Notes under the pieces: generated by a model
What the model was told of the DNA's origin: nothing
What the model saw: only the letters and a program-made list of their open reading frames with translations
Databases searched by the model: none
NCBI GenBank assembly: GCA_017410365.1
Contig: JAFQQY010000020.1
Span: forward strand, 62,001-126,000
DNA length: 64,000 bases
Direction: 5' to 3'
DNA from: Prevotella sp.
GTDB lineage: Bacteria; Bacteroidota; Bacteroidia; Bacteroidales; Bacteroidaceae
Part shown: positions 2,604 through 21,504 of the stretch, one piece after another
How the letters are laid out: every line of letters starts with the position of its first letter
How positions within the stretch are numbered: the first letter of the stretch is position 1
Position numbers and translations under genes: made by a program

Positions 2604-4559
2604 ATGAAGACCAAAAAACTATTATGCATTAAGCATTATGCATTAAGCTTTGTTCTCGTTCTGGCAGCACTTATGCTGATGAGTGCCGGAACAGTGAAGG
2701 TGCATACCTGTGGCGACTCCACAATGGCACCATACGACGAATCGGCCACAGTAACCCGTGGCTGGGGAATGTACTTCCATCAGTTCCTGAATGGTGTGAC
2801 ATCAATCAACTACGCACGCGGCGGGCGCGACACGCGCGGATTCTATAATGAGGCCGACCGCTGGGGTGCAGTGAAGAGCAACATGCAGCCGGGCGACTAT
2901 GTGCTCATACAGTTTGCTCATAACGACGAGAAGAACGGCGGTATGGACGGTATGGCTCTGAAAGAATACTACCAGAGTATTGGCAACACTGCCGAGGCAA
3001 ACAAGGTTGATACCCGCGGTACAGTGCCAAGCACTACCTACAAGGAATATCTGCGCAAGTATGTAGAGGAAACTCGCGCACTGGGCGGCAACCCTATCCT
3101 CGTGGCTCCTGTATGCCGCAGCTACTTCAGCGGCAACAAGATTCGCCGTAACGGTCGTCACGACCTGGGCGACAGTTTCTCTGTGCTTACAGAGAACGGA
3201 CCTGTTAGCGGGCAGAAGGTGGCAGAGAGCGACCACTCTATGGACTATCCTTATCAGATGAAGTTGGTGGCAGAGGAGATGAACGTGCCGTTTATCGACC
3301 TTACCACAGCCACAGCCGAACTCTACGAGAGCTACGGCGACGCCAAATGTCATGAATATCTGTTCGACGGCGACGGCAGCACCCACTTCAACACTACTGG
3401 TGCTCTGCTCGTGGCTCGCAAGTGTGCCGAACTGATGAAGGCACAAGGCATCCTGGCCGATAACATCGTACTGCCAAGCGACCTCAGCGTAACACCTGCC
3501 GAGGCAGACCTTGGCGAGGCTTACAAAGGACAGACTCTGCGCAAGGAGTTTACACTCAACGGATTCAGCCTTACTCCTGAGAGCGGAACTATCACCATAA
3601 GTGCTTCTGAGGGCATAACACTGTCAACAGACAAGAACAACTGGCAGAACACACTTAGCGTAAACTACACCGCCTCAACGCTGGTGCAGACATTCTACGC
3701 ACAGCTGACACTGACTCAGAATGGACTGACCGAGGGTAAGGTAATAATCAAGCAGGGCGACAAGACCATCGAGGTGCCGGTAAAGGCAACTGCCGTAACC
3801 CTGGAAGGCGGAACAGCAGTGAAGGCTTTCTGGCGCTTGGAGAAGGATGAGTCATGCGTGCTCACCGGTCCGGCAACGGTAATAGAGCAGTCATGGTCTA
3901 ACATGTATGTTCAGAGATATGCATGTCCGAAGGGCGGCAAGGATGGCAACGGCAATTACTATACACAGTATCCTGACGGCATTCCTGCAGGCGAGACTCC
4001 CGACCGCAAGACACAGCGCAACCTGCTGACCGGCGACCAGTGGCCTGACGGCGAGATTGACGACAACCCGGAGCGTTATATCGACTTCGGACTGAAAGCC
4101 AACGTCGGCACAGAACTGAAGATAAACAACATAAGTCTCTATGTGGGCGGCGCTGGCGGCAACGGAATGATGTGCCACGTTTATTATTCTACCGACAACT
4201 TCCAGACACGCACCACTATCTATGCACCAAGCAAGATGGTAGCTAACACGATGAACGGCGTGAGCTGTCAGCCTGTCATCACCCTGAAAGAGGGCGAGGA
4301 GGTACACGTGCGCATCTATCCTTGGTATAACGGTGCAGCATCGGGCAAGACCATCTGTCTGAGCGACGTTACCATCGAGGGCATGGTGTTCGATGCCTCT
4401 GCCGACGGTATTAATGGTGTAATAAACAACCCCAACGTGGTTAGCGTAAACTACTACGATGCCAATGGGAGAGCACTGTCATCACAGACCGAAGGCGTGA
4501 ATATTATCCGCACAACTTATGCTGACGGGAATACAGATATAAAGAAAGTGGTGAGGTAA
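2604..4559 (+). CDS. Secreted SGNH hydrolase, rhamnogalacturonan acetylesterase (CE12-like)
   Basis: A 651-residue exported esterase expected to remove acetyl groups from rhamnogalacturonan/pectin. After a signal peptide (about residues 1-29) comes an SGNH domain (about 33-280) with block I GDSTMAPYDES (catalytic Ser), block II GGRDTRGF, block III QFAHNDE and block V DGSTHFNTTGA carrying the Asp-His pair. Beta-sandwich-like regions follow, and a C-terminal tail (about 605-651; YYDANGRALSS...NIIRTTYADG) resembles the sorting/adhesion tails of Prevotella secreted enzymes. The CE8 gene follows after 42 nt, so an operon is likely. Oddity: part of the signal peptide (CIKHYALSF) is encoded by an intergenic-type ATGCATTAAGC repeat. 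Substrate assignment comes from family and context. Confidence 0.85.
   Translation: MKTKKLLCIKHYALSFVLVLAALMLMSAGTVKVHTCGDSTMAPYDESATVTRGWGMYFHQFLNGVTSINYARGGRDTRGFYNEADRWGAVKSNMQPGDYVLIQFAHNDEKNGGMDGMALKEYYQSIGNTAEANKVDTRGTVPSTTYKEYLRKYVEETRALGGNPILVAPVCRSYFSGNKIRRNGRHDLGDSFSVLTENGPVSGQKVAESDHSMDYPYQMKLVAEEMNVPFIDLTTATAELYESYGDAKCHEYLFDGDGSTHFNTTGALLVARKCAELMKAQGILADNIVLPSDLSVTPAEADLGEAYKGQTLRKEFTLNGFSLTPESGTITISASEGITLSTDKNNWQNTLSVNYTASTLVQTFYAQLTLTQNGLTEGKVIIKQGDKTIEVPVKATAVTLEGGTAVKAFWRLEKDESCVLTGPATVIEQSWSNMYVQRYACPKGGKDGNGNYYTQYPDGIPAGETPDRKTQRNLLTGDQWPDGEIDDNPERYIDFGLKANVGTELKINNISLYVGGAGGNGMMCHVYYSTDNFQTRTTIYAPSKMVANTMNGVSCQPVITLKEGEEVHVRIYPWYNGAASGKTICLSDVTIEGMVFDASADGINGVINNPNVVSVNYYDANGRALSSQTEGVNIIRTTYADGNTDIKKVVR
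2621..2648 (+). repeat. ATGCATTAAGCATT repeat inside the CE12 signal peptide
   Basis: Two copies of ATTATGCATTAAGC lie head to tail within the 5' end of the CE12 gene. The same word family (GCATTAAGCATTATACATTAAGC) is found at the folP 3' end around 39066-39106. It encodes the hydrophobic core start of the signal peptide. Confidence 0.6.
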
Positions 4560-4601
4560 CTCAAGAACTCAATAACTCAAAAACTTAAATAAAACTCCAT
4601 T

Positions 4602-7600
4602 ATGAAAAAGAACTTTTTAAATGGGCTTCTGCTCATGCTCGTCAGTCTCTTTGCCACATCGGCAAAGGCAGAGAGCGTGCAGATAGCCAACTGGACATTC
4701 GACACTGGCTACGACGTGGCTGAGAATGTTTACACGCCTAACAGCAACGCATGGGCGGCTGTAGGACATTTCTGGTTTAAAGACGGACAACCGAAGTTCG
4801 TTGCTAACGAGGCCGTTGGCAACGCTGCCGACTATGTCATGACAGCACAATCGGAAGGCCGCTACTGGCAGTTGTGCGAGGGTTATCAGAACAAGGTGCT
4901 GCGCATAGAGAATGCTGACGCCAACGACATCAGCGACTATACCGACGCATCTAAGCATAATGTATATTACGAGATTCAGTTCCCTACCAAGGGATATAAG
5001 AACATCTCTATAGAATATGCATGTGCCTATGGAGCCAATGCCGTGGCTTCACTGCAGACAGTGGTTTCTACCGACGGCGGTGCAACATGGTTTGACGGCG
5101 GTTCATGCCAGACAGCAGCAAACTGGTGGATATACAATGTCAACACTGTGACCTTGTCTGCCAATAACAAGGACAAGGTTATCGTGCGTCTCATCGCCGG
5201 CAACACTTTCAAAAGCAACTGGAACATGGACTATGTGAAGGTTATGGGTGAGGCAATGGAAGAGGCTAAGCCTATCGAAGCAAAGGATGCTACAATAGCA
5301 TGGGCTTTCGACCAGGGTGTTGAGAATCCTACAATGGCAACGGTTTCTGTTCCTGAGGCTGTTTCTACAACAAGTTGGGAATTGGGCAGCAACGTTACTC
5401 TTCAAGCAACCGCATCTGCAGGCACAGAGACAATGACAAAGATTCAGCCTGTAGTAAGCATCGGCAGAGCACAGGAGGAGAACTCTTATGTTAAATACAC
5501 AATCATTCCTAAAAAAGGCGTTAAGTTCACACCAAAGAAACTCAGCTTCAACGCAGCTAAGTTTGGTACAAGCGGCGGACAGTTTGACGTATATGTTATT
5601 CGTGGCGAAGAGAAGGTTCAGTTGACAGAAGGTTTCAATCCTGAGCGCAACAACACCGGCAATGGTTTCACAGCTGTAGAACATGCAATCAACGGTATGG
5701 GCGCCAGCGAGGAAAGAATAGAGCTATGGTTCTATATCTGGAATCTTGCCAACAACAAGCAGGTGGGTCTGAGTGACATCACACTGACAGGTGACTTCGA
5801 AGGTACTCCAGAGGCAGTTCCTGTATATACTCTGAATGTCAAGTCAGGCATGGAGGGTGCTGGCAAGATTGCCGTCAATCCTTCAGGCAACGAGTTTGAT
5901 GCAGGCACAGAAATAACTCTTTCTGTAACAGAGAACTTCGGCTACCACTTCACATCATGGACAGATGCTCAGGGCAACGTTGTTTCTGACAAGAATCCTT
6001 ATACATTCGAGATTTCTGCAAATACCGACCTTACAGCAAACTTCGACAAGAACAACGTATATGCTCTCAACTATGTTGCCATCGACGATATGGGCAACAA
6101 GTATGGCAACCAGAACCTCGTGACATTCCTACCTGAGGGCAATATCGTTGACGGTGTTCACTACTACGAGGAAGGCACAGACGTGAAACTGACTGTTGCC
6201 AACAATAAGATTCTCTCGTTCACAGGTTGGGAAGACGGTACAACAAATGCCGAGCGCATCATCAACATGGACGGCGAGAAGAACGTAACCGTAAACTATG
6301 CCGTGGCCGACTATATCGTGGCATGGGACCTCTATCAGGATCAGCCTAACTCTCAGCGTGCAGCCGACTACCGCAGCAACAGCGAGAATGCCGGTCTGCT
6401 CTCACTGCGCAATGCTGCCGGCAGTACAACAAGCTGGCTTACTCGCGGTGTAAACAACGGTGCTGAGGAAGGCCGTTGGGGCGCACGTATCTGGAAGCTC
6501 CGCTCAGAAGGATGGTACTGGGAAGTATCTTTCTCAACAAAGGGATACAGCAACATCAAGTTCTCTAATGGTTTCGGACACAACTACAACACATATTCTG
6601 TGATTAAGGCTGAATACTCTGTTGACGGAACAAACTTCACAGAGGTTGGCACATACGACATTCCTGAGCGCGGATGGGTTGACGGTGAGTTCACTCTTCC
6701 TGCTGACGCCAACAACCAGGAGCGCGTATATATCCGTTGGATGCCAGGTTCTGAAGAACTGGTTGGCGCAGAGACCGACTACGATGGTCTTTCTATCGGT
6801 GACATCTTCGTATTGGCAGAGAGCGAGCAGGCCAACGACCAGACAGCACCAGTGCTCGTAAGCAGCAACCCTGCCAACGGAGCAACAGGCGCTTCGGCTA
6901 CAGGCAGCATCGTACTTACATTCGACGAGCGCGTGAAGGTTGGTACAGGCAACGCCACTCTCAACGGCGAGGCGATTGCTCCAACCGTAACTGGTAAGAC
7001 AGCTGTGTTCCAGTATGCAGGTCTTGACTATAACAAGGAATACTCATTCACACTGCCTGCTGGCGTAATCACCGACCGCAGCGGCAACGCTTATGCCGGT
7101 ACAACTATCAACTTCACTACAATGGAGCGCACACAGCCAGCAGCACGCATCTATGATGCAGTTGTTGCAGCTGACGGTTCTGGCGACTACAAGACTGTTC
7201 AAGAGGCTATCGACGCTGCTCCTGCCGGCAGAGCATTCCCATGGCTCATCTTCATCAAGAACGGTGAATATAAGGGTCACGTTGACGTTCCTGCCAACAA
7301 ACCATACTTGCACTTCATCGGACAGGAGCGCGACAAGGTAATCATCACCGACGACAAACTCTGTGGCGGCGACAATGCTGTCCACGTAAGCGTAGGTGCA
7401 ACGGTTGTGGTTAATTCAAACAACTGCTACTTCGACAACCTGACACTCGAAAACTCATGGGGTCATGACAAGCAGGCGGGTCCACAGGCATTGGCTCTGA
7501 ATACCAGCGGCGACCGCACTGTGTTCAAGAACGTGGCAATGCTGTCTTATCAGGACACATGGATTACTCCTTCTACATCAAACTACCGTGTTTATGCCAA

Positions 7601-8897: not shown

Positions 8898-9033
8898 AAC
8901 TCATCAACTCATAAACTTATTAACTTCTCAACTTCTCAACTCATAAACTTATTAACTTCTCAACTTCTCAACTCATCAACTTATCAACTCATCAACTTCT
9001 CAACTCATTCACTTCTCAACTTTCCAACTCTCT
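8898..9033. repeat. Degenerate 8-bp tandem array (AACTYNTN)17
   Basis: Seventeen consecutive octamers, all in register, of the form AACTCATC, AACTCATA, AACTTATT or AACTTCTC. The last three units lie inside the catalase gene and encode its final residues and stop codon. The same octamer family recurs at 4562-4590, 29884-29923, 43208-43255 and 56311-56413, in both orientations. Confidence 0.9.
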
Positions 9034-10478
9034 TGCAAATCTATTCCCAACGCCTTTGCCACTCCCTCACCATACTCCTTGTCGGCAAGATAACAGTTGC
9101 GCACATGTCGCTGCTTTATGAACAGTTCCGCATCGCCCATCGCCCTTGCCGTATTCTCAAAGAGCAACTGTTGCTCCTCAGCAGGCATCAGTCGGAAGAG
9201 ATTGCCTGGCTGCGTGTAATAGTCGTCATCATATTCGCGCTCAGTGTAGTTATACACCTCCCCATGCGTCCGCAACGGCGGTTCCTTCAGTCGTGGCGTG
9301 TCATTCCACTCACCAAAACTGTTTGGTTCATAACCCAGTGTTCTGCCATAGTTGCCATCCACCCTCATTGCGCCGTCGCGATGATAGGCATGGAACGGAC
9401 AGCGCGGACGATTGACTGGAATCTGCTCAAGGTTCACCCCTAGGCGATAACGCTGCGCATCGCCGTAGGAAAACAGTCGCCCTTGCAGCATCTTGTCGGG
9501 CGAGAACCCTATGCCATCGACTATATTCACCGGATTGAATGCCGCCTGCTCCACCTCAGCAAAGAAATTCTCCGGATTGCGGTTCAGTTCGAGTATGCCA
9601 ACATCATGCAACGGGTAATCGCCATGCGGCCACACCTTCGTCAGGTCAAACGGATTGATATGATAGTTGTCGGCCTCATCCTCGGTCATCAGTTGCACCT
9701 GAAAGAGCCACCGCGGATAGTCACCCCGTTCAATACTCTCAAACAGGTCGCGCTGGTGCGACTCGCGGTCTTTGGCTATCAGCGCCTCAGCCTGTTCGTC
9801 GGTAAGGCATTTTATCCCCTGCAGCGTGCGCAGGTGGAACTTCACCCATGTGCGCTTGTTGTCTGCATTTATGAAACTATAGGTATGACTGCCGAAACCG
9901 TGCATGTGGCGGTATGACAACGGTATGCCTCGCGGACTCATCGTGATGGTTATCTGGTGCAGAGCCTCTGGCAGCAGCGTCCAGAAGTCCCAGTTGTTGT
10001 TTGCCGAGCGCATGCCCGTGCGCGGGTCGCGCTTTATGGCATGGTTAAGGTCGGGAAACTTCAGCGGGTCGCGCAAGAAGAACACCGGCGTGTTGTTTCC
10101 CACAAGGTCCCAGTTGCCCTCTTCCGTATAGAATTTCATTGCAAACCCTCTGATGTCGCGTTCTGCATCAGCTGCTCCCCGCTCACCAGCCACGGTAGAA
10201 AACCTTACGAAACACTCCGTCTGCTTGCCAATCTCGCTGAACATTGCAGCCCGTGTATATTTCGTTATGTCATGCGTCACGGTAAACGTACCGTATGCTC
10301 CAGCACCCTTTGCATGCATTCGCCGTTCCGGTATCACCTCACGGTCAAAGTGAGCCAACTTCTCTATCAGCCACGGGTCTTGCATCACTATCGGTCCTCT
10401 CTTTCCTGCCGTCTGCGAGTTCTGGTTGTCGGCAATCGGTCTGCCATTGGCAGCAGTCAGTTTCTTCTCTTTCTCCAT
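9009..10478 (-). CDS. katA: Heme catalase
   Basis: A 489-residue monofunctional heme catalase that decomposes hydrogen peroxide in the cytoplasm. Landmarks are in place: the distal His in [12 protein letters not shown] (His near 55), the Asn in VGNNTPVFF, the substrate-channel region [16 protein letters not shown], and the proximal heme ligand Tyr in [11 protein letters not shown] (near 338). Length and start ([14 protein letters not shown]) fit small-subunit bacterial catalases. The gene stands alone, with its own -7 box upstream. Oddity: the last eight codons (ESWKVEK and stop) are made of the octamer repeat array that fills the downstream spacer, so the native C-terminus has been replaced or extended by repeat. 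Confidence 0.96.
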
Positions 10479-11276: not shown

Positions 11277-12020
11277 TTATATTCTATGCGGTTGGTTTCG
11301 GGGCATTTGCTGTATAATCTCACCTTGCAGCATTTTTCCATTTGCGTGTTTGTTTCTTTTGATGCCATCACTACCCCAAGTTCCCCATTGCTTGAAAAAG
11401 AAAGCTGAACCTTTCGACTCTGCTTGCTGTTTAATACTAACGGCCCATTCTGGCTTCATTGGTCTGGCTTTTGGACCGCTCTCACCACCGACTATCACCC
11501 AATCAATACCAATGAGGTCCAAATTTCCCAAATCCTCTATCAACGGCTCGCAAGACAGAAACTTAACCGAAGCATCCAGATGGCGCAGATGCTCTATTCT
11601 GTATTTGGTCGCTTGACACTCCACGGTTACACCTAACCACACATTCCGAGGTATAGTCCGCGTTTTGAAATACTCTTCCATCCGTTCTGCGCGTTTTGTC
11701 AAAATCTGATAGCGGTGTTGTGGTGTCTGTATAATAGTATTCATTATTCTATCGACAAACTCGTATGGAACTTCCTCATGGAATATGTCACTCATAGAGC
11801 AGACGAAAATATTATGCGGTTTGTTCCAGGCCAGAGGTTCTTGCAAATCGTCTTCATGCAAGGCCAATCCAAATCCTTGTTGGTATTTCTTCAACCCCAT
11901 AGCCTTCAGACGTCGTGCCATGACTTCAGCATAGCAATGTGCGCAGCCTGCCGACTTTTTTGTGCAACCCGTTATGGGATTCCACGTTTTGTCCGTCCAT
12001 TCTATTTTTGTCGTCCTCAT
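11277..12020 (-). CDS. Gp37/Gp68-family (DUF5131) three-Cys-motif protein
   Basis: A 247-residue protein of the phage Gp37/Gp68 (DUF5131) family. It opens with TKIEWTDKTWNPITGC and has a cysteine cluster C19-x6-C26-x2-C29 (GCAHCYA) that resembles, with different spacing, the 4Fe-4S-binding loop of radical SAM enzymes. Further family marks are FVCSMSDIFHE, YQILTKRAERM, WLGVTVE, FLSCEPLIEDL and WVIVGGESG, which together look like a TIM-barrel radical-SAM-like scaffold. The start overlaps the TcmP stop by 4 nt (ATGA), so the two are translationally coupled; the TcmP family is named as the partner of these three-Cys proteins. Reaction and substrate are unknown. It is last in a four-gene operon. 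Confidence 0.85.
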   Translation of the reverse strand: MRTTKIEWTDKTWNPITGCTKKSAGCAHCYAEVMARRLKAMGLKKYQQGFGLALHEDDLQEPLAWNKPHNIFVCSMSDIFHEEVPYEFVDRIMNTIIQTPQHRYQILTKRAERMEEYFKTRTIPRNVWLGVTVECQATKYRIEHLRHLDASVKFLSCEPLIEDLGNLDLIGIDWVIVGGESGPKARPMKPEWAVSIKQQAESKGSAFFFKQWGTWGSDGIKRNKHANGKMLQGEIIQQMPRNQPHRI

Positions 12021-12964
12021 AATCCTTGTTTCTTCTTAATAATCTGACTTGCAATCTTAATTGCTGTTTGATTGTTTGATGCACAAGCGAAGTGAAATAT
12101 TGGCGTGTTCCTTGTGTTATACAACACCAAAGGTTTCTCGGTTACATAATCAAAAATTGTTTTAAGTTGCTCAATATACAGCTCTGCTATTTTCTCGATA
12201 GGTTTCTTCACTTTCTCTACGATTTCAGTTTCACCAAACAACGTGTCAACTGTTCTAATCTTATAGAAATAGTTCTTTAGAAAAACTTCATCCTTGCCAA
12301 AGAAAGAAGTGAGTTTGTCAATATGTGTCAATTCACATTTCCTATCAAGAAGCCTGTTGACAATAACACCAGTAGGAATCAGAATCCACAGGTCTGTTCG
12401 TGTACCTTTCAGCTGTTCAATGGATGTCCAATCAACTTGCATACCAAATGGATCAAGCAGAACCAAGGAAGCTAATTTTCTATCTTTCTGCATTGCACTT
12501 GCAAGCATCTCTATTTGCTTGTTAGCATCAGAGTTTCTATAGACTAAAGTCTTTTCGTTTTCAAAGCGAGACAACAATTCGTGTAGTTTAAGACTTGATT
12601 CAGGATCATTATCCACGAAATAATAGTAGTCAAAGCCTCTTTGAGAAATACTTAAAACTCTTTCTGCTGCGCCCTTATAGAGATTCAATTCTTCCTTCTT
12701 GATAGATGACTCTTTAAAGAAATCTAACAACAAAGGTGAGTCCTTTTCCTTATTCATCTCATTGCGGGATCCACTACCGGCAAAACCGTCGAAATAAATC
12801 AGCTTCCAGTTATACTTGTCGCGAGAAGCATTCATAATAGTCAGATATGCATTGACATATTTCTCAAATGCATCCAACTTCTCTTCTGTCCATTGCCCTC
12901 CCCATGATGAAGGTTCACAAGCCAGAAAAGATTCTTCTTCAATGTGGTTGTATTCTTTTGCCAT
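12017..12964 (-). CDS. tcmP: Three-Cys-motif partner protein TcmP
   Basis: A 315-residue protein of the TcmP family. Residues 57-65 (YFDGFAGSG) look like the glycine-rich motif I of a class I SAM-dependent methyltransferase, and LVLLDPFGMQVDW near residue 170 corresponds to the acidic DPxG motif of the same fold. The N-terminal WGGQWTEEKLDAFEKYVNAY region is typical of the family. It is always or nearly always encoded beside a three-Cys Gp37/Gp68-type protein, as here. Its substrate is unknown; nucleic-acid modification is a reasonable guess given the helicase in the same operon. No signal peptide is present. Confidence 0.85.
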   Translation of the reverse strand: MAKEYNHIEEESFLACEPSSWGGQWTEEKLDAFEKYVNAYLTIMNASRDKYNWKLIYFDGFAGSGSRNEMNKEKDSPLLLDFFKESSIKKEELNLYKGAAERVLSISQRGFDYYYFVDNDPESSLKLHELLSRFENEKTLVYRNSDANKQIEMLASAMQKDRKLASLVLLDPFGMQVDWTSIEQLKGTRTDLWILIPTGVIVNRLLDRKCELTHIDKLTSFFGKDEVFLKNYFYKIRTVDTLFGETEIVEKVKKPIEKIAELYIEQLKTIFDYVTEKPLVLYNTRNTPIFHFACASNNQTAIKIASQIIKKKQGL

Positions 12965-13308: not shown

Positions 13309-16077
13309 CTATATTTTCCAGTTGTCTATAGTCCTGTCAAAATATTTAATAACGTCCTCTTCTTCTTGAGTGAAAGTCGCAGCAAGATGAGTGGTGGCCC
13401 TAGAAACACCGACATAAAGATACCTTCTCATAATATCTAATGAGCAATCTTCCAAAGCTGTATCTATATCATAGAAAAACACAACCTCAAATTCCATTCC
13501 TTTGACTTCTGAAATTCTGAACACTCGAACTGCCTTAGTATTTGGTGCAGTCCTATTTTCAGAGCAATCGTATATCTGGATGCCATTAAGATAGTCTTGA
13601 TCGTTTATTAAATCAACGAGTTCTTTAATATTTACGTCATCGCCAACGAAAATAGCAACTGATGGCATACTTTCATCGTATGTTTTATAGACTTCAATAA
13701 TACGCTTTGCAATCCATTCCGCCTTCTCTTCTTCATCATCTGAGATAAAACAAAGCGGAGCAGGTTCATTATCCGATCTTTCCTTAGTTGTAGTATAAGG
13801 AGCCTCCACCTTCAAATCATCAAAGTACATTTGCTTTGACATATCAAGCAACGAGGGCAATTGGCGATAGGATGTCTTCAGTTCATATACTTCCAACTTG
13901 GGAAGAATGGATTTTTTGAGTTGGTTCCAGTTCTTTATGCCATTATCATTCAGGCCTTGCATAATATCACCACACAAAGTTAGTGTTGAATATTCATAAT
14001 GGGAGAATGATGCCATAAAATAGTAATCAATAATAGAATAGTCTGTAGCCTCGTCTATTCCAATGACAGGTTTTACGTTCTCTTTATAGGCTTCCACATA
14101 TTTATTCTTCATGCCGTTGAAACGTACATGAGATTTCTTATACATTCCAAGTAGCATATTGTTGATGAAGCCTACTATTAGTTCAAGTTCTTCTGGATGA
14201 ATACGTTTGCCTCCGTCCTTCTTTTGAATCTTCTCAAGAAGTTTTTTATTAAACAGATTGCTTCCTATCTCAATTTGCCTCTTCCGGAATAACTTGTAAA
14301 GCCGAGGAATCTGGTTAAGCAAATTGCTTTCAACACCCCTGCACAAGAATGCATAGTTTTTGGTAAACCAACTTAGTTCACCAATATCGTTGAGTTCGTT
14401 TATTTCCACCAAAGACTTGACAATAACATACAAATCTTTTTGTCGCTTGGTTAGTTTCTGGTTACTATCATATTTCCGCAAACTCAACTTCTTCAAAATC
14501 GGTTTTAATTGCTGATACAGTTTTGCGTCATAGTCGATGGAAGACAATTCTTCCTCATCGTCTTCGGCTTCATCCATCGCATTTTCTTCTATGTCATCTT
14601 CTTGAACAATGATAGTCTCTTGCCTCCATTTCTCAAACAAGTCTATGACTGCCGTTTTTAACTGCTCATCCTCATCTACCTTATTCTTAATAAATAGAGC
14701 CCTCTTGCTTAATAGGTCATTCAACTGCGCCTCTATTTGTGACACTGATTTCCTCTCATTGTCATATAATGAGTTAAATAGTCGTATAAGTGCATCAATA
14801 TCCTTTATTGTTTCTGCTCGCTTACAATATGCCTTGATGCTCTGCGCCAAAGTATGCCAAGAATATTCAGAAGTCTTCAAAGAATAAGCATTTAGCAAGA
14901 TATTTGAGATATTGCCAATACAGAATTTCTCAAATGCTGATATTGCACCTTCTGCATTTAAAATTAAAGATGTCTCAGCTTTATCCCTTACCTTATATAA
15001 TTTGAATGGTCCGTCAGAATCAGGCTTCCTCAATTTATACTCCATCAGAATCTTGTTTCTAAAGCTTTCTAATGTAGTTGTATTATTCTCATTGGCGTTC
15101 AGGTACTCGCCCCTCATGTTGGCCTGTAGGAATGACAACAACTTATCTGTCGGAGAAAAGAACAACCAGTTTGTATCCCTTGTATTTGGATTAGTAAGAG
15201 ATGATATTTGTTCAGATGTAAGAGGTGCATTATATTCCTCCAAGGCCTGTTGGGATATTAAGAACTTCAACCTTTGAATCATGGTGGTAGTCTTTCCTGT
15301 ACCTGGGCCACCTTCTATTACAATTGGAGTCCCATCAAACAGATGAGAACGCTTAGCATCTTCCTGTGTCTCATCAAGGATGTGCTGGGATCGTAATGAC
15401 AAGTCTTTACGAATGAAAGACTGTGTCTGTTTCACTTTCGATTTTGACTCTTCAATATCTTTTTCCAGTTGAGCAATCTTAGCACGATTAGTTTTTTCTT
15501 CCTCTTCGCGCTTTCTTGCTTCTTCAAGAAGTCTTTCTTCTTCCTCCTTTCTGGCTTTCTCCTTAGCAGCCCTTTCTGCCTCTTCTCTTTGTTTGCGAAG
15601 TCTTTCCTTTTCTTCTTGAAGTGCTTTCAGTTGGGCCTCTTGCTCTCTTTGCTGTCCTAACAAATCATATAATCGCTGAAAACGATAGTAATTCGCATCA
15701 TTTTCGATATTGATAACAATTTCCTGTGCAGTAGAGAAATCTGGTTTATAGATAGCCCTATTATGAATTGTCACTTCTACTTCATTCTTCCGTTTTGGAT
15801 TTTTGGTTATTTGTATATATTTTCTCTTTCCAGAATAGTATTTGGAAAGAATCTCACCCATCTTTGAGTCTCGATGAACAACAGTTCCATCTGTGCGGAG
15901 CACTTTGGTTGTATCACCTATTACAATCCAAAACTGTTGAGCACCCTCTTTACCGCGTAATGTGCTATCAAGCGAACAATAAGCTCTTCCTATTGCAGGA
16001 ATCCGCGTATAACTTGCCTTTTCCTTTTCAATATGTCGTTGGATGGCCTTACCTATGTCGTGAAGTGATTCTTTCAT
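13309..16077 (-). CDS. SF1 (UvrD/HelD-like) helicase with N-terminal coiled coil
   Basis: A 922-residue ATP-dependent helicase or translocase. An N-terminal globular region (about 1-135) is followed by a highly charged coiled coil (about 140-220, rich in Glu, Lys, Arg) and then an SF1 motor: motif I GGPGTGKTTT (near 256-265), motif II IDEATD (near 675), motif III LTLCGDIMQ, motif IV TSYRQ, motif V VKGMEFEVVFF and motif VI YVGVSRAT near the C-terminus. I chose the ATG before KESLHDIG; the frame is open 13 codons further with a TTG. It is the first gene of a helicase, small protein, TcmP, three-Cys operon. DEATD instead of DExQ suggests a divergent, defence-associated branch rather than UvrD/Rep. 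Confidence 0.85.
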   Translation of the reverse strand: MKESLHDIGKAIQRHIEKEKASYTRIPAIGRAYCSLDSTLRGKEGAQQFWIVIGDTTKVLRTDGTVVHRDSKMGEILSKYYSGKRKYIQITKNPKRKNEVEVTIHNRAIYKPDFSTAQEIVINIENDANYYRFQRLYDLLGQQREQEAQLKALQEEKERLRKQREEAERAAKEKARKEEEERLLEEARKREEEEKTNRAKIAQLEKDIEESKSKVKQTQSFIRKDLSLRSQHILDETQEDAKRSHLFDGTPIVIEGGPGTGKTTTMIQRLKFLISQQALEEYNAPLTSEQISSLTNPNTRDTNWLFFSPTDKLLSFLQANMRGEYLNANENNTTTLESFRNKILMEYKLRKPDSDGPFKLYKVRDKAETSLILNAEGAISAFEKFCIGNISNILLNAYSLKTSEYSWHTLAQSIKAYCKRAETIKDIDALIRLFNSLYDNERKSVSQIEAQLNDLLSKRALFIKNKVDEDEQLKTAVIDLFEKWRQETIIVQEDDIEENAMDEAEDDEEELSSIDYDAKLYQQLKPILKKLSLRKYDSNQKLTKRQKDLYVIVKSLVEINELNDIGELSWFTKNYAFLCRGVESNLLNQIPRLYKLFRKRQIEIGSNLFNKKLLEKIQKKDGGKRIHPEELELIVGFINNMLLGMYKKSHVRFNGMKNKYVEAYKENVKPVIGIDEATDYSIIDYYFMASFSHYEYSTLTLCGDIMQGLNDNGIKNWNQLKKSILPKLEVYELKTSYRQLPSLLDMSKQMYFDDLKVEAPYTTTKERSDNEPAPLCFISDDEEEKAEWIAKRIIEVYKTYDESMPSVAIFVGDDVNIKELVDLINDQDYLNGIQIYDCSENRTAPNTKAVRVFRISEVKGMEFEVVFFYDIDTALEDCSLDIMRRYLYVGVSRATTHLAATFTQEEEDVIKYFDRTIDNWKI

Positions 16078-16139
16078 ATTATGTCTTTTATTTACTTCAA
16101 AATACAATTTATTCAAGATAAAATTATCTGGTGATTCGT

Positions 16140-16539: not shown

Positions 16540-17739
16540 TTAATACAGCCTTAAATCCCTATTAGGAAAACAAATTCTATTGCCAGTGTCATTTATTGTT
16601 TCCATAATCTTTTTCCCTACAACTTCCATTATTTTCCGCATAAGTGGTACTATAGAGGCATATTCATCATAATTAATTGTTGTTATATGAAATTCTGATT
16701 CTTTATTGTGTACTAATGAGCATCTGACATCGTATATAAATTTTGAAATACAACTATTGATTTGAGCAGAATCTCTTATGCTTTCTGGTTTCATATACGT
16801 ATTACCATTGGAGTTCTTCTGATAGTATTTAGTGCAGAAAGTTACTACATCAGGAGTAACCAATGTGTCAGGAACCTCTCCATCAAAAGATGATAATACT
16901 TCAGGAAGCCCTTTCACAAAAGTATCTCTTTCTGCATTAGAGAATTTTTTATCCAATCCTATAATTTGTCTGACAAACGACTGTTTTACATTTGCCCCAG
17001 TAACAATTGACACAAATTCTTTTCTATATACCATATATTCAAGTATTTGGTACATTTTTAGGAACGCTGTTAACACATCTTTACAGTTGTTCCATTCACT
17101 AATCACATCGTAAATATCAATATATTGTTCGTATTTGGCAGTGCTGTTAAAAGATATAGTTGTATTAAATTGTAACGGTGAGTAATTTAATGCTGGATTA
17201 ACATCGATATGACCTCCACAATTAACGCACATGTATAATCCATACATATACAATTTCCACGAATCAACTCCATTTAAGGTATTTCTATCAGATATTATAT
17301 AATATGCATTTTTTCCGTCATGGTTTATAATATAATTAAGGAAATCTTTTCTACAGTTTTCATCAAAACATATCTTCTCGAATGCTAACATTATAGAGTC
17401 TTTATACTCTTCACCTCTTAGAAAGTTGTCACAATTAAGTACAATAAGTTCTAATGAATTCCAAATAAAATTTCTTTTTTGAAATATTAGTTGGAATGTT
17501 TCTCGTGTAACTAAATACTTTTCATAATTATTTAGTTCATCTTCATTGCAATTAGCAATCATTGATTCTACAATAACCTTAAAATTCTCTTCTTGCAGAT
17601 TTTTTTTTAGAAGTATTAAAGCATCCTCTAAACCATTTACATCAAGTTCATTTTGAACATCATCATTATTAATAACTAAATCTGGATGTTCAGAAAGAAT
17701 CGTTGAGAGTATATTGGTATATAATTCTTTTCTATTCAT
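16540..17739 (-). CDS. HEPN-like protein with C-terminal Rx4H motif
   Basis: A 399-residue, Asn/Ile-rich protein of unknown family. Near the C-terminus a helical region contains R339-CSLV-H344, an Rx4H arrangement matching the catalytic Rx4-6H signature of HEPN ribonucleases, followed by NKE and a long helix. A single CVNCGGH stretch mid-protein could bind metal. The gene overlaps the upstream DGQR gene by 8 nt, so the two are coupled. HEPN proteins in such settings are commonly RNA-cleaving toxins of abortive-infection systems; activity here is inferred only from the motif. Base composition is clearly more AT-rich than in flanking core genes, in line with horizontal acquisition. The 424 nt beyond its end hold only remnant ORFs. 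Confidence 0.6.
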   Translation of the reverse strand: MNRKELYTNILSTILSEHPDLVINNDDVQNELDVNGLEDALILLKKNLQEENFKVIVESMIANCNEDELNNYEKYLVTRETFQLIFQKRNFIWNSLELIVLNCDNFLRGEEYKDSIMLAFEKICFDENCRKDFLNYIINHDGKNAYYIISDRNTLNGVDSWKLYMYGLYMCVNCGGHIDVNPALNYSPLQFNTTISFNSTAKYEQYIDIYDVISEWNNCKDVLTAFLKMYQILEYMVYRKEFVSIVTGANVKQSFVRQIIGLDKKFSNAERDTFVKGLPEVLSSFDGEVPDTLVTPDVVTFCTKYYQKNSNGNTYMKPESIRDSAQINSCISKFIYDVRCSLVHNKESEFHITTINYDEYASIVPLMRKIMEVVGKKIMETINDTGNRICFPNRDLRLY

Positions 17740-18985
17740 TATTTAATCCTTTTTTTGACGTAAATGCTTCTGACCATTGTATGTTACTTCCATCAAGAAC
17801 AGATAAAGAATACCTAAAGATAGCATCTCTGACTTTATCACCAATATTAATTCTACTGCTTGACAAATTATTGTATTCCCTATAAAAATCATTCAGATTG
17901 AAATAGTTTGTATGACATAGATTTGTGATGAGTTTGTTTGTTGCTTCTTGGAAATTGTTATTATAATCATCTTTTACTAATCTCAGATAACGTCCAACAG
18001 CTCCCATTATCCCAGAAATGGTGGTGTCTTTTACAAACCACACATAATATTGAGAATCATAGGAACAGAGTAGATTATCTATATTATATAAAGATTCCAA
18101 ATAAATATTTAAAAAAGGCTGGTTAAAATATTTATCCACCTCTTCTTCTGACACAAAATCTTCTTCATAATTTAATTCAAGATTATCTGTGCTCAAACGA
18201 ATAGGCTTTCCCATAATAAGAGATTGTAGTCCAATGATAGTAGATGAAAATATAAAATCTCCAACATTCCTTTCGCCCTTTTTTACTTTACCATACGAAT
18301 CATCTTTTTCACGTATAAGATGAACTTGTTTAGATAGTTCTTTGTCTTTAAATATTTGTAAAAACATTAATTCGTATTGATGACCAGTAGATACTTTACG
18401 CTGTCCTGCATTTAGTATGAGCATCTTGTTAATAGTCTCTTTTTCATTTAATCCACCCCAAATATAAAAGAATACATCAAAGTTCTTGTAAATTTGGGGA
18501 ATAATAGAAACATTGATACTATTACTTAAATCCAACAGTTGTTTAATTAATGATATTGACAATACCCCCGGAATATAGTAATTAGATGTCTTTAATTCAT
18601 TTATTATTGTTGACATATTGAATGTATATTCCCCAAACATATCCAAAGATTGAGTTTCAAGAGCAATCTCCGATATCTTTTTATAAAGCCAAAGGCGGTA
18701 GGTTCTTTGTAAACCGTCCAGTATATTAAACGAGCCATTGTTGATGTTTAGCTCATTGTCTTTCACATCTGCCTTATCAATTGTAATAGTTATTGGTGGA
18801 ATAGGTTCGTTTCTTTGAACGGACAAGAGTATGGAGTCTAAATATTTATTTTTTACGATTCCCCTTTGAATTTCAAACTCAAAGTTTTTTGGTGAAACGG
18901 ATACAAGATAATCCCATAGTGACATTTTTCCTAAAAACCAAGAACGACCTTGAATTCTTTTACTATCTAATATTGAAACCTTCAT
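17732..18985 (-). CDS. DGQR/ParB-like (DUF262/DndB-type) protein
   Basis: A 417-residue protein with the core of a ParB/sulfiredoxin-like domain of the DUF262/DGQHR group: PPITITIDKADV leads into FNILDGLQRTYRL, where D90-G91-x-Q93-R94 is the signature, and MLILNAGQRKVSTGHQ is the second conserved block, comparable to the ILNxTQKxV block of DndB-like proteins. Such domains are nucleotide-dependent DNA-binding or nicking modules in GmrSD, Dnd/Ssp and similar defence systems. The gene follows a membrane protein gene by 10 nt and overlaps the HEPN-like gene. The remaining C-terminal half is helical and unrecognised. The exact subfamily is uncertain. Confidence 0.65.
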   Translation of the reverse strand: MKVSILDSKRIQGRSWFLGKMSLWDYLVSVSPKNFEFEIQRGIVKNKYLDSILLSVQRNEPIPPITITIDKADVKDNELNINNGSFNILDGLQRTYRLWLYKKISEIALETQSLDMFGEYTFNMSTIINELKTSNYYIPGVLSISLIKQLLDLSNSINVSIIPQIYKNFDVFFYIWGGLNEKETINKMLILNAGQRKVSTGHQYELMFLQIFKDKELSKQVHLIREKDDSYGKVKKGERNVGDFIFSSTIIGLQSLIMGKPIRLSTDNLELNYEEDFVSEEEVDKYFNQPFLNIYLESLYNIDNLLCSYDSQYYVWFVKDTTISGIMGAVGRYLRLVKDDYNNNFQEATNKLITNLCHTNYFNLNDFYREYNNLSSSRINIGDKVRDAIFRYSLSVLDGSNIQWSEAFTSKKGLNNE

Positions 18986-18995
18986 AACGCTAATA

Positions 18996-19811
18996 TTATT
19001 TATTTGTATCTGACATATTCATTTGTTGCTGCTGTGTTAATGCTTTCTGAAAAGCATTTGCCATTTCAATCTGAGACTTAGCATTTTTATACATTTCATA
19101 ATTACCAAAGAGATAATTATCCCATAGCCCCATATCAATCTCATGTAATATCTGTTCTATCTTTTCTGGGATAGCATTACCGTTTTGATCATAAAGTACA
19201 TCAAAACAAGCCTGCTCATGCAGATATCGTAAAGACAAATATTCACCTAATCCAAAAGTTTTATACCAATCAGGGTTATAGTTTGTTTGTTTTGTTTCAC
19301 TATTATAATGACTTTTTGCTAAAACCTCCCTTACATATCTCTTTCCAAGTTCTCTAATAGTAATGTATTGGCGGTTCGCGCCAAAATACCTTTCGGCATC
19401 AATAAAAAACAAATTGTCACAATGCTTTTGATTAATCTGAAGTATTATTCCATCTATTTCCTTCTCGTCAATAATTCTTTCGGCAAAATGAATTCTATGG
19501 ATGTTAAACGTCTCATTTGCAGGAACAATAATCGGAATTCCTAATTTGTGCAACAACACTATGATTGTTCTTTTTTGCGCAATAGTTAAATCTGTATTGA
19601 ATTGGTTCTCTGCTTTAACATAGGATTGACCATCGTAATGCCTAATAATGTTTAATGCTTTTATGGCAATATTACGTACTTCAGCCATTCTTTCGTCTTC
19701 TTTTGCTTTTTGGTATTTGTTACCAAAGAAAGCACCGACCCAACCACCAAGAACTGCTGCAAGGATGGGGATAAGGACATATGCACCGATATTAAATGTA
19801 GTAGGTTCCAT
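18996..19811 (-). CDS. Membrane-anchored protein of unknown function
   Basis: A 271-residue protein with one N-terminal transmembrane helix (about residues 8-30, a Gly-rich run ending GGWVGAFFG) followed by a charged linker and a mainly helical cytoplasmic domain. No catalytic signature was recognised; conserved-looking segments are AERYFGANRQY and GLGEYLSLRYLHEQ. It is the upstream member of a run of three closely spaced, AT-rich genes with the DGQR and HEPN-like genes. A membrane sensor or effector role in the same system is possible but speculative. Confidence 0.6.
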   Translation of the reverse strand: MEPTTFNIGAYVLIPILAAVLGGWVGAFFGNKYQKAKEDERMAEVRNIAIKALNIIRHYDGQSYVKAENQFNTDLTIAQKRTIIVLLHKLGIPIIVPANETFNIHRIHFAERIIDEKEIDGIILQINQKHCDNLFFIDAERYFGANRQYITIRELGKRYVREVLAKSHYNSETKQTNYNPDWYKTFGLGEYLSLRYLHEQACFDVLYDQNGNAIPEKIEQILHEIDMGLWDNYLFGNYEMYKNAKSQIEMANAFQKALTQQQQMNMSDTNK

Positions 19812-19825
19812 AATCTATATGCTTG

Positions 19826-20157
19826 TTATTTGTTATTATTGTATTCTTCTCGTGTTATTGGAGTCTCAGGATCTACGATGAGCACTTCATCGTAGGTCAG
19901 GCCATATAGGTGATAGACGAGGAGGTCGATTTCTGATTCTTCTTTTGAAGTGTCAGCATCTGACAACTTGCCTTGAAGAATTGCATTGACCATTTCTTCT
20001 ATCTGTACCTTTTGCTTTTCTGAAGTATTGGGAAGTTTGACTTGCTTCACATATTCTGCTTTGATGGCAAGATTCAGAAATTTCGTAGCGAAAAGATAAT
20101 TCATGAGTTTCGAGTTGAGAATGCCTAACAAGTAACGCAGAGAGTCTATTTAAATCT
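19826..20157 (-). pseudogene. 3' fragment of an Eco57I/type IIG-like restriction-methylase
   Basis: The reading frame from IDSLRYLLGILNSKLMNYLF to the end (NAILQGK, then IDLLVYHLYGLTYDEV) is the characteristic C-terminus of Eco57I-like restriction-modification methylases with a TaqI-like specificity domain. Full proteins are typically around 1000 residues or more; only about 110 remain. The frame is closed by a TAA exactly where homology starts, near 20157. Upstream lies a promoter box and an ATG opening a different frame (MKDLNRLSALLV). So a foreign promoter/start has been joined to the methylase stub. The ATG version starting MLGILNSK could be translated but would lack the catalytic region. 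Confidence 0.65.
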
Positions 20158-20526: not shown

Positions 20527-21504
20527 TCACTCATCATTGCTTTTGTTTATAAGATTAACGACAACTTTCACCATAACATCTTTTTCCTCTGTCCTGCTCT
20601 CGGCTATCATAAGCGTGAGGGCTACAAGGGTGTTGTCTGCTAACCTCTTGGTGCCGTCTTCACGATAAAGGATGCCATTGTTGTTTAAGAACCATAGGAA
20701 CAGGGTGGCGGCAATGCGCTTATTTCCGTCACTGAACGAGTGATTTTTGGTGACAAGATAGAGCAGCATGGCGGCTTTCTCTTCAACACTTGGATAAAGT
20801 TCTTCGCCACCAAAAGTCTGATATATCTGAGCAATACTGCTTTTAAACGAATCGTCCTTCTCGTTGCCAAAGAGTTTGCTGCCTCCAAACTTGTCACGAA
20901 GTGCACGGATAGCCTCCATTGCGTTGTCGTAGGTGGCATGGAATTTTTCTTCAGGTGTTGTTTCCTTAACTACCAATCGCTGGTAATCGTAGTCATCAAG
21001 GGTGTCGAGAGCGTATGTATAGTCAACCACTACATCAAAAAGCGCGTTGGTTTCATCGGTGGAAAGCACTGGCTGATTCTGAATAGTACGTCCAAGCATC
21101 CCCACAAGTTGGCGCAACTCACCTATCTGCTCCTTGTGGATACGCTCGTTGACGGCATAGCCTTTAACCAGGTAATCCTTGATGATTTGGCGTGCCCATA
21201 TACGAAAAGCCGTACCGCGTTTGCTTTTTACTCGATAGCCCACAGAGATGATGACATCAAGGTTATAATACGGAACAGGCTTCTTGATTCCATTAACGTG
21301 TATTTTTTGCACGTTATTATCACGCTCCAATTCTCCTTCTTTAAAAACGTTGATAACATGCCTACGGATATTGGATTCTTCTTTGTCAAATAGCATTGCC
21401 ATCTGACTGGTAGATAACCACACCGTCTCGCTCTCCAGACGAACATCTATTTGTGTTTGTCCGTCCTCTGTCTGATATATAATGATTTTATTATCTGTAT
21501 CCAT
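20527..21504 (-). CDS. RhuM-Fic/Doc fusion protein
   Basis: A 325-residue protein with an N-terminal RhuM-type domain (about 1-130; TVWLSTSQMAMLFDKEESNI, YYNLDVIISVGYRVKSKRG) and a C-terminal Fic/Doc domain (about 150-320) with the active-site loop H255-SFSDGNKR-263, matching HxFxxGNxR. Fic domains transfer AMP or other nucleotide moieties to target proteins, and Doc phosphorylates EF-Tu; the target here is unknown. In Fic enzymes the His is catalytic and the Asp binds metal; both are intact. It marks the right end of the accessory island, has its own promoter box and ends in a hairpin. Members of this fusion are spread by mobile elements and may act as toxins. Confidence 0.88.
   Translation of the reverse strand: MDTDNKIIIYQTEDGQTQIDVRLESETVWLSTSQMAMLFDKEESNIRRHVINVFKEGELERDNNVQKIHVNGIKKPVPYYNLDVIISVGYRVKSKRGTAFRIWARQIIKDYLVKGYAVNERIHKEQIGELRQLVGMLGRTIQNQPVLSTDETNALFDVVVDYTYALDTLDDYDYQRLVVKETTPEEKFHATYDNAMEAIRALRDKFGGSKLFGNEKDDSFKSSIAQIYQTFGGEELYPSVEEKAAMLLYLVTKNHSFSDGNKRIAATLFLWFLNNNGILYREDGTKRLADNTLVALTLMIAESRTEEKDVMVKVVVNLINKSNDE

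Follow-up and report, generated by a model that had tools for sequence, protein, structure and literature searches.

Dazbog, an anti-phage system of two genes, in a divergent Bacteroidales form behind an unrelated orphan gene

We analyzed a 64,000-nucleotide (nt) stretch of a Prevotella sp. genome (contig JAFQQY010000020.1, positions 62,001 to 126,000 of the forward strand; hereafter the window), and focused on three adjacent genes on its minus strand, which an earlier note had presented as a candidate for an undescribed three-gene defense module. Judged by their sequences, the second and third genes encode DzbA and DzbB, the proteins of the known anti-phage system Dazbog, in a divergent version from Bacteroidales. 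The first gene, which we call gene A, belongs to a separate family and is not part of Dazbog. The explanation that best accounts for the whole, to which we assign a probability of about two in three, is that DzbA is a DUF262-type sensor, that it controls DzbB as a HEPN-like ribonuclease (RNase), and that gene A is dispensable. The present analysis itself establishes the pair's membership by sequence, its tight pairing, its co-divergence and its invariant motifs.

Identity of the dzbA-dzbB pair

Gene A (18996-19811, minus strand, 271 amino acids (aa)) is separated by 10 nt (18986-18995) from dzbA (17732-18985, minus strand, 417 aa), which overlaps dzbB (16540-17739, minus strand, 399 aa) by 8 nt (17732-17739). 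The coordinates, spacing, overlap and AT-richness described in the earlier note were borne out by the listing of open reading frames (ORFs) and by the base composition: the region from 16 to 20 kb has a GC content of 0.28-0.35 in its four 1-kb intervals, compared with 0.36-0.54 in the other 60. Pfam and NCBIfam scans of the three gene products returned nothing significant, which is why the trio had looked new. PADLOC, however, identifies the middle product as DzbA (PDLC03835, E = 2.4e-27, 94 bits) and the last as DzbB (PDLC03836, E = 6e-08, 30.5 bits), the latter together with a weak match to a SIR2 model (E = 0.019). The claim of a new system gives way to a precise assignment to Dazbog.

We quantified the recurrence of the pair by scanning a collection of genome contigs with an alignment of three DzbA sequences, which yielded 34 related dzbA loci whose record titles include Bacteroidota, Proteobacteria, Firmicutes and others; not all of these loci are independent (the contig of L013 equals one of G321 in length; L035 and L044 are close). 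A DzbB homolog lies directly 3′ of dzbA at 31 of the 34 loci (phmmer, E = 1e-3), at spacings between -38 and +15 nt when ORFs are taken from their first start. The three loci where no homolog was called (L025, L030 and L042) stop 668, 914 and 72 bases past the dzbA frame; in the first two an open frame that the DzbB profile does not recognize follows straight after dzbA, and in the third dzbA itself is incomplete. On a Priestia megaterium plasmid, the gene after dzbA is 1371 nt long and overlaps it. We aligned 34 DzbA proteins (the window protein and 33 loci, leaving out the incomplete DzbA of L042) and 32 DzbB proteins (the window protein and 31 loci). Pairwise identities among the DzbA proteins track those among the DzbB proteins (r = 0.87 over 32 members, a value that 0 of 2000 permutations equaled), and this co-divergence fits a partnership between the two proteins.

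The alternative that the pair is a new system, with only the DUF262 and HEPN folds in common with Dazbog, draws on the modest DzbB score and on the Bacteroidales and Bacteroidia loci L011-L014, which are nearer to the window (38-64% DzbA identity) than most others. However, DzbA identity declines gradually from 64 to 25% over the 34 loci, into Firmicutes and Proteobacteria, with gene order unchanged. The PADLOC Dazbog models also match 34 of 34 aligned DzbA and 31 of 32 aligned DzbB proteins, with no other defense family at E = 0.001, and we regard a separate system as most improbable, close to negligible. In sum of its characteristics, the window copy shares with Dazbog both PADLOC models, the gene order, the tight coupling and a DUF262-type DzbA, and differs in its divergence and in its position, which is behind the unrelated orphan gene A and what is left of a type IIG restriction enzyme.

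Two neighbors of dzbA elsewhere are recorded here as observations in their own right. At L029, a gene of the AIPR abortive-infection type (3514-5907) lies 57 nt upstream of dzbA. At the closely related loci L035 and L044, a gene with a PAPS-reductase domain (5018-5923 and 5065-5919) stops 14 and 12 nt before dzbA, respectively. PAPS-reductase domains are found in phosphorothioation genes, and a link of this neighbor to DNA modification is possible.

A candidate sensor and a candidate effector

We now turn to what the two proteins may do. DzbA is a DUF262/GmrS-like protein of the ParB/Srx superfamily and carries IQR, DGLQR and LNAG motifs. Residues Q40-R41, N46, L89-D90-G91-L92-Q93-R94 and N192-A193-G194 are invariant in all 34 aligned proteins, and the LDGLQR present in every one of them has a leucine at the position where a review has the I/V of the (I/V)DGxQR-type motif. 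The Pfam family GmrSD_N (DUF262) matches 10 of the 34 proteins at E <= 0.05 (best 2.8e-05), the window protein not being among them. The same review lists Dazbog among the DUF262 systems, reports that there is no resistance without the DUF262 gene, and proposes that this domain likely recognizes methylated DNA (PMC10952713).

The C-terminal part of DzbB contains an R-x4-H block (RCSLVHNKESEFH), within which all 32 aligned proteins agree at Y336, R339, H344, E349 and H351 (YxxRxxxxHxxxxExH); the residue after the arginine is C or N across the alignment, and C in the window copy. The active site of HEPN RNases is described as Rx4-6H, in which the arginine is followed by a polar residue that is mostly N, D or H (PMC3710099). 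The motifs that had been picked out from the single sequences, namely DGLQR (D90), LNAGQRK (from L191) and RCSLVH (R339, H344), are all present, and they are more than chance resemblances, as L89-R94 and N192-A193-G194 are invariant over the 34 aligned DzbA proteins and R339 and H344 over the 32 aligned DzbB proteins. The part of the earlier note that paired a DUF262-like protein with an R-x4-H protein in a defense context stands.

Precedents for such a pairing exist. HEPN families in operons with ParB proteins were already noted in 2013 (PMC3710099), and PD-T4-2 appears in both the DUF262 and the HEPN rows of a review table, so that the pairing of the two domain types would itself have precedent; the mention of such associations in the earlier note agrees with both sources. 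In that table, the HEPN row as accessible contains PD-T4-2, PD-T4-5, PD-T7-3 and ApeA, and Dazbog does not appear in it (PMC10952713). If DzbB is a HEPN protein, Dazbog has the same pairing of domain types as PD-T4-2, but no PD-T4-2 model came up for the window proteins in PADLOC (E <= 1), whose coverage of that system was not checked. With the modification-dependent DUF262-DUF1524 proteins GmrSD, BrxU and SspE, Dazbog shares the DGxQR nucleotide-pocket motif and, in 10 of the 34 aligned DzbA proteins, a GmrSD_N match; it differs in that it is without a DUF1524 nuclease according to the review (PMC10952713), its partner being a separate R-x4-H protein. With the ParB-operon HEPN RNases (MAE_28990 and RiboL-PSP), it shares the R-x4-H motif and a ParB-superfamily partner (PMC3710099), whereas DzbB has no significant RiboL-PSP or Apea profile match and its conserved block extends to E349 and H351.

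We compared the C-terminal half of DzbB with HEPN profiles using hhalign. Its R-x4-H aligned in register with the RNxxxH of HEPN_RiboL-PSP at a score of 20.6, a score reached by 1 of 100 column shuffles (mean 12.0, standard deviation 2.1). The RiboL-PSP set comprised 13 of 18 loci, some of its members lying below the Pfam cut-off, after L056, L057, L058, L066 and L069 were dropped for want of an open frame with the motif; L049 and L051 were dropped likewise from the Apea set, which left 3 members, or 2 without L050. This motif rule for picking set members biases the comparison toward alignment of the motif. An apparent link between RiboL-PSP and Apea at a probability of 96.9 was discarded, as the two sets had a gene in common (L050, L054). 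A third HEPN family that we searched for, MAE_28990, mostly gave the same genes as RiboL-PSP and was left aside. Judged by its motif, DzbB is likely a HEPN RNase. This reading of DzbB is possibly new, and the R-x4-H block, kept in every aligned DzbB, provides Dazbog with a testable effector hypothesis.

In the mechanism that we propose, DzbA would act as a DUF262/GmrS-like sensor with a nucleotide-binding DGLQR pocket, and would respond to some property of the phage DNA, the likeliest being its modification (methylation). Upon detection, it would gate DzbB by releasing or activating it, and the system would use nucleotide hydrolysis. DzbB, a HEPN-like RNase, would then cut RNA by means of R339 and H344, RNA being its presumed target, and the cutting would halt phage production in the infected cell. 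The upstream gene A would be dispensable for the action of dzbAB. Published summaries describe Dazbog as activated by phage methylases (PMC12409349) and class it as abortive infection (PMC11680222). We found no mechanistic study of Dazbog in the open-literature collection that was searched, subscription literature lying outside its scope, and a literature search on the names DzbA and DzbB returned unrelated uses of the letters.

Several results weigh against this explanation. Pfam finds no match for the window DzbA (best E = 0.69) or the window DzbB, and no Pfam HEPN family matches any of the 32 DzbB proteins at E = 0.05. Sequence-profile searches of the PDB found no solved structure that resembles DzbA and, for DzbB, weak matches outside the motif region only (best E = 0.059). 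The cysteine after the arginine of the window DzbB lies outside the usual N, D and H of HEPN proteins. The alignment of DzbB with RiboL-PSP falls short of significance (P = 0.035, probability 1.4%), and reversing it gave a score of 16.1; the comparison with HEPN_Apea is in register but scored 15.7-16.1, lower than the 18.0 of the unrelated gene A against Apea. RiboL-PSP and Apea, both accepted as HEPN, scored 14.1 against each other without the shared gene; hhalign fails to link these two families, and the comparison is thus a weak one. Methylation sensing by Dazbog rests on reviews, and shared descent alone can also produce correlated divergence of DzbA and DzbB.

Some of these results also suit a different division of labor, in which Dazbog acts mainly through a DNA-cleaving or DNA-blocking DzbA, while DzbB has a regulatory role and its R-x4-H is structural and not a HEPN active site. 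The lack of HEPN family matches among the 32 DzbB proteins, the non-significant profile comparison and the invariant block, which is longer than the plain HEPN motif, all agree with it. In contrast, 32 divergent DzbB proteins strictly retain R, H and other polar residues, which fits an active site, and the alignment that places the motif in register with a HEPN family outscores 99 of 100 shuffles. In addition, GmrSD-type cleavage is assigned to DUF1524, the very domain that the review reports as missing from Dazbog (PMC10952713). We consider a DzbA that cleaves or blocks DNA an unlikely alternative to a DzbA sensor that controls a DzbB RNase.

Gene A as an independent family

Gene A encodes an orphan protein of 271 aa with one N-terminal hydrophobic segment, a feature that the earlier note had reported and that the protein sequence confirms. 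It has no NCBIfam or PADLOC match, its best Pfam match (E = 0.079) falls well short of the cut-off, and a PDB sequence-profile search gave no significant solved-structure match. We found 9 members of its family, 8 of which were aligned, with 33-47% identity to the window protein; they have in common the glycine-rich N-terminal hydrophobic segment and the conserved domain blocks KRxxxVxLHKxGxP, CDxLF and GLWD. Two pairs of their loci are near copies (L106/L107 and L008/L110), and L110 has gene A in part only.

The distributions of gene A and dzbA are separate. A gene A homolog occurs at 0 of the 34 dzbA loci, 33 of which have more than 2 kb of sequence upstream of dzbA (L031 has less than 150 nt), and none is found around dzbA in genomes G321 and G093 (L009, L010). 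Conversely, no dzbA homolog is present at the 8 other gene A loci (L007, L008 and L105-L110). Among same-order samples of 393 genomes, gene A occurs in the window's own genome (G000), G101 and G109, and dzbA occurs in G000, G321 and G093. Among same-genus genomes, 7 of 170 have gene A and 1 of 170 has dzbA, with G000 in both counts and both draws starting with the same genomes as far as they are listed; apart from G000, six of these genomes have gene A and none has dzbA. Gene A is a narrow family, because it was found in 1 of 395 genomes of the phylum sample (G000 only) and in 1 of 119 genomes of G101's family (G101 only), and a search of viral contigs and plasmids gave no match.

Consequently, the three-gene module of the earlier note does not hold, as gene A mostly occurs without the pair. 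That note had named as a refutation that homologs of the three genes never occur together: this applies to the trio, which was not seen together outside G000 in the samples, and does not apply to the dzbA-dzbB pair, which recurs at 31 of 34 loci.

An operon composed of Dazbog and a recently added membrane-anchored accessory, which localizes DzbAB to the membrane or supplies its trigger, would account for gene A and dzbA being co-stranded and 10 nt apart, and for gene A lying at the position of the junction between a type IIG enzyme and dzbA in the closest relative. A promoter scan does not discriminate: minus-strand promoter-like matches lie within gene A, from 19471 and from 19144, but the region's total of 28 is no more than chance would give (24.5, standard deviation 4.4). 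Three results speak against a functional trio: gene A is missing at all 34 dzbA loci, dzbA is missing at the 8 other loci with gene A, and the same-genus counts are unequal. We rate such an operon as highly unlikely relative to a Dazbog pair that acts without gene A.

The neighborhoods of gene A elsewhere are varied. At L007, a DUF3644 gene (PDC-S19) overlaps it by 4 nt, alongside a type IIG restriction-methylase; at L008 and its copy L110, the neighbor is a DEAD helicase. At L105, a DUF6414 gene lies 141 nt upstream, and an integrase-core gene and a GHKL ATPase lie farther away on the opposite side. At L108, a GHKL-type ATPase, related to that of L105 and with its own Pfam match below the cut-off, lies 9 nt upstream, and a Schlafen-AlbA_2 gene lies 56 nt downstream. 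A second Schlafen-AlbA_2 gene overlaps gene A by 14 nt at L109. L106 and L107 have a NusG-like gene, and L107 has a NACHT/STAND gene farther off. PADLOC matched PDC-S19 and the type IIG enzyme (L007), PDC-M54A weakly (L107) and pAgo-type models for the two Schlafen genes, and gave no match for the two GHKL ATPases or the DUF6414 gene. Our impression, formed without a random-gene control, is that gene A is linked to defense islands, and its presence in varied defense-type neighborhoods is a separate lead that may be new. It is quite unlikely, in our estimate, that a bolder combined claim holds in full: that gene A is an undescribed membrane-anchored family of Bacteroidales defense islands, a shared effector or sensor borrowed by varied modules, and that DzbB is in addition a HEPN RNase that explains the arrest of phage by Dazbog.

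The type IIG remnant and the surroundings of the locus

The closest relative of the pair is found in a Bacteroidales metagenome-assembled genome (L011; 64% identity for DzbA and 66% for DzbB), where a complete type IIG-like restriction-methylase of 1064 aa, with Eco57I and TaqI_C domains, stops 13 nt before dzbA, and gene A is absent. The window retains a C-terminal remnant of such an enzyme, about 100 aa in length (19826-20143, minus strand): in a tblastn search, residues 957-1059 of the L011 protein match window positions 20143-19841 at 50% identity, and the ORF at 19826-20131 matches the PADLOC model REase_MTase_IIG (E = 3.3e-11). At the DNA level, the similarity between the window and L011 is limited to dzbAB, at 70%, and to an 80-base piece of the remnant. 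Because the order in the window is remnant, gene A and then dzbAB, compared with methylase and then dzbA in L011, gene A occupies the site of the L011 junction, and would either have been gained here or lost in L011.

The idea that dzbA generally lies beside a methylase was dropped, as homologs of the L011 enzyme are found at 2 of the 34 loci (L011 and L027). A crude methylase-motif search added two further loci, L033 and L030, although the L030 ORF lies directly after dzbA and was judged spurious. In favor of the dropped idea, the Priestia plasmid carries a cytosine methylase and an MspI-type enzyme at least ~4 kb upstream of dzbA.

We compared the flanks of the island across 30 same-genus genomes and found no empty site. 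The ABC-transporter flank was matched in 24 of the 30 (own genome included), elsewhere mostly at 63-78% bar short pieces, and the flank at 9009-10478 was found in the own genome only.

Three further loci of the window lie around these genes. A protein with RhuM-type and Fic/DOC domains (20527-21504, minus strand) matches the PADLOC candidate PDC-S23. A UvrD-like helicase of 935 aa (13309-16116, minus strand; UvrD_C_2), which weakly matches GajB and mad8, is located between Dazbog and a candidate defense pair, consisting of a DUF5131 protein (PDC-M41B/M30B) and TcmP (PDC-M41A), which lies 3.6 kb past the Dazbog genes (11277-12964, minus strand).

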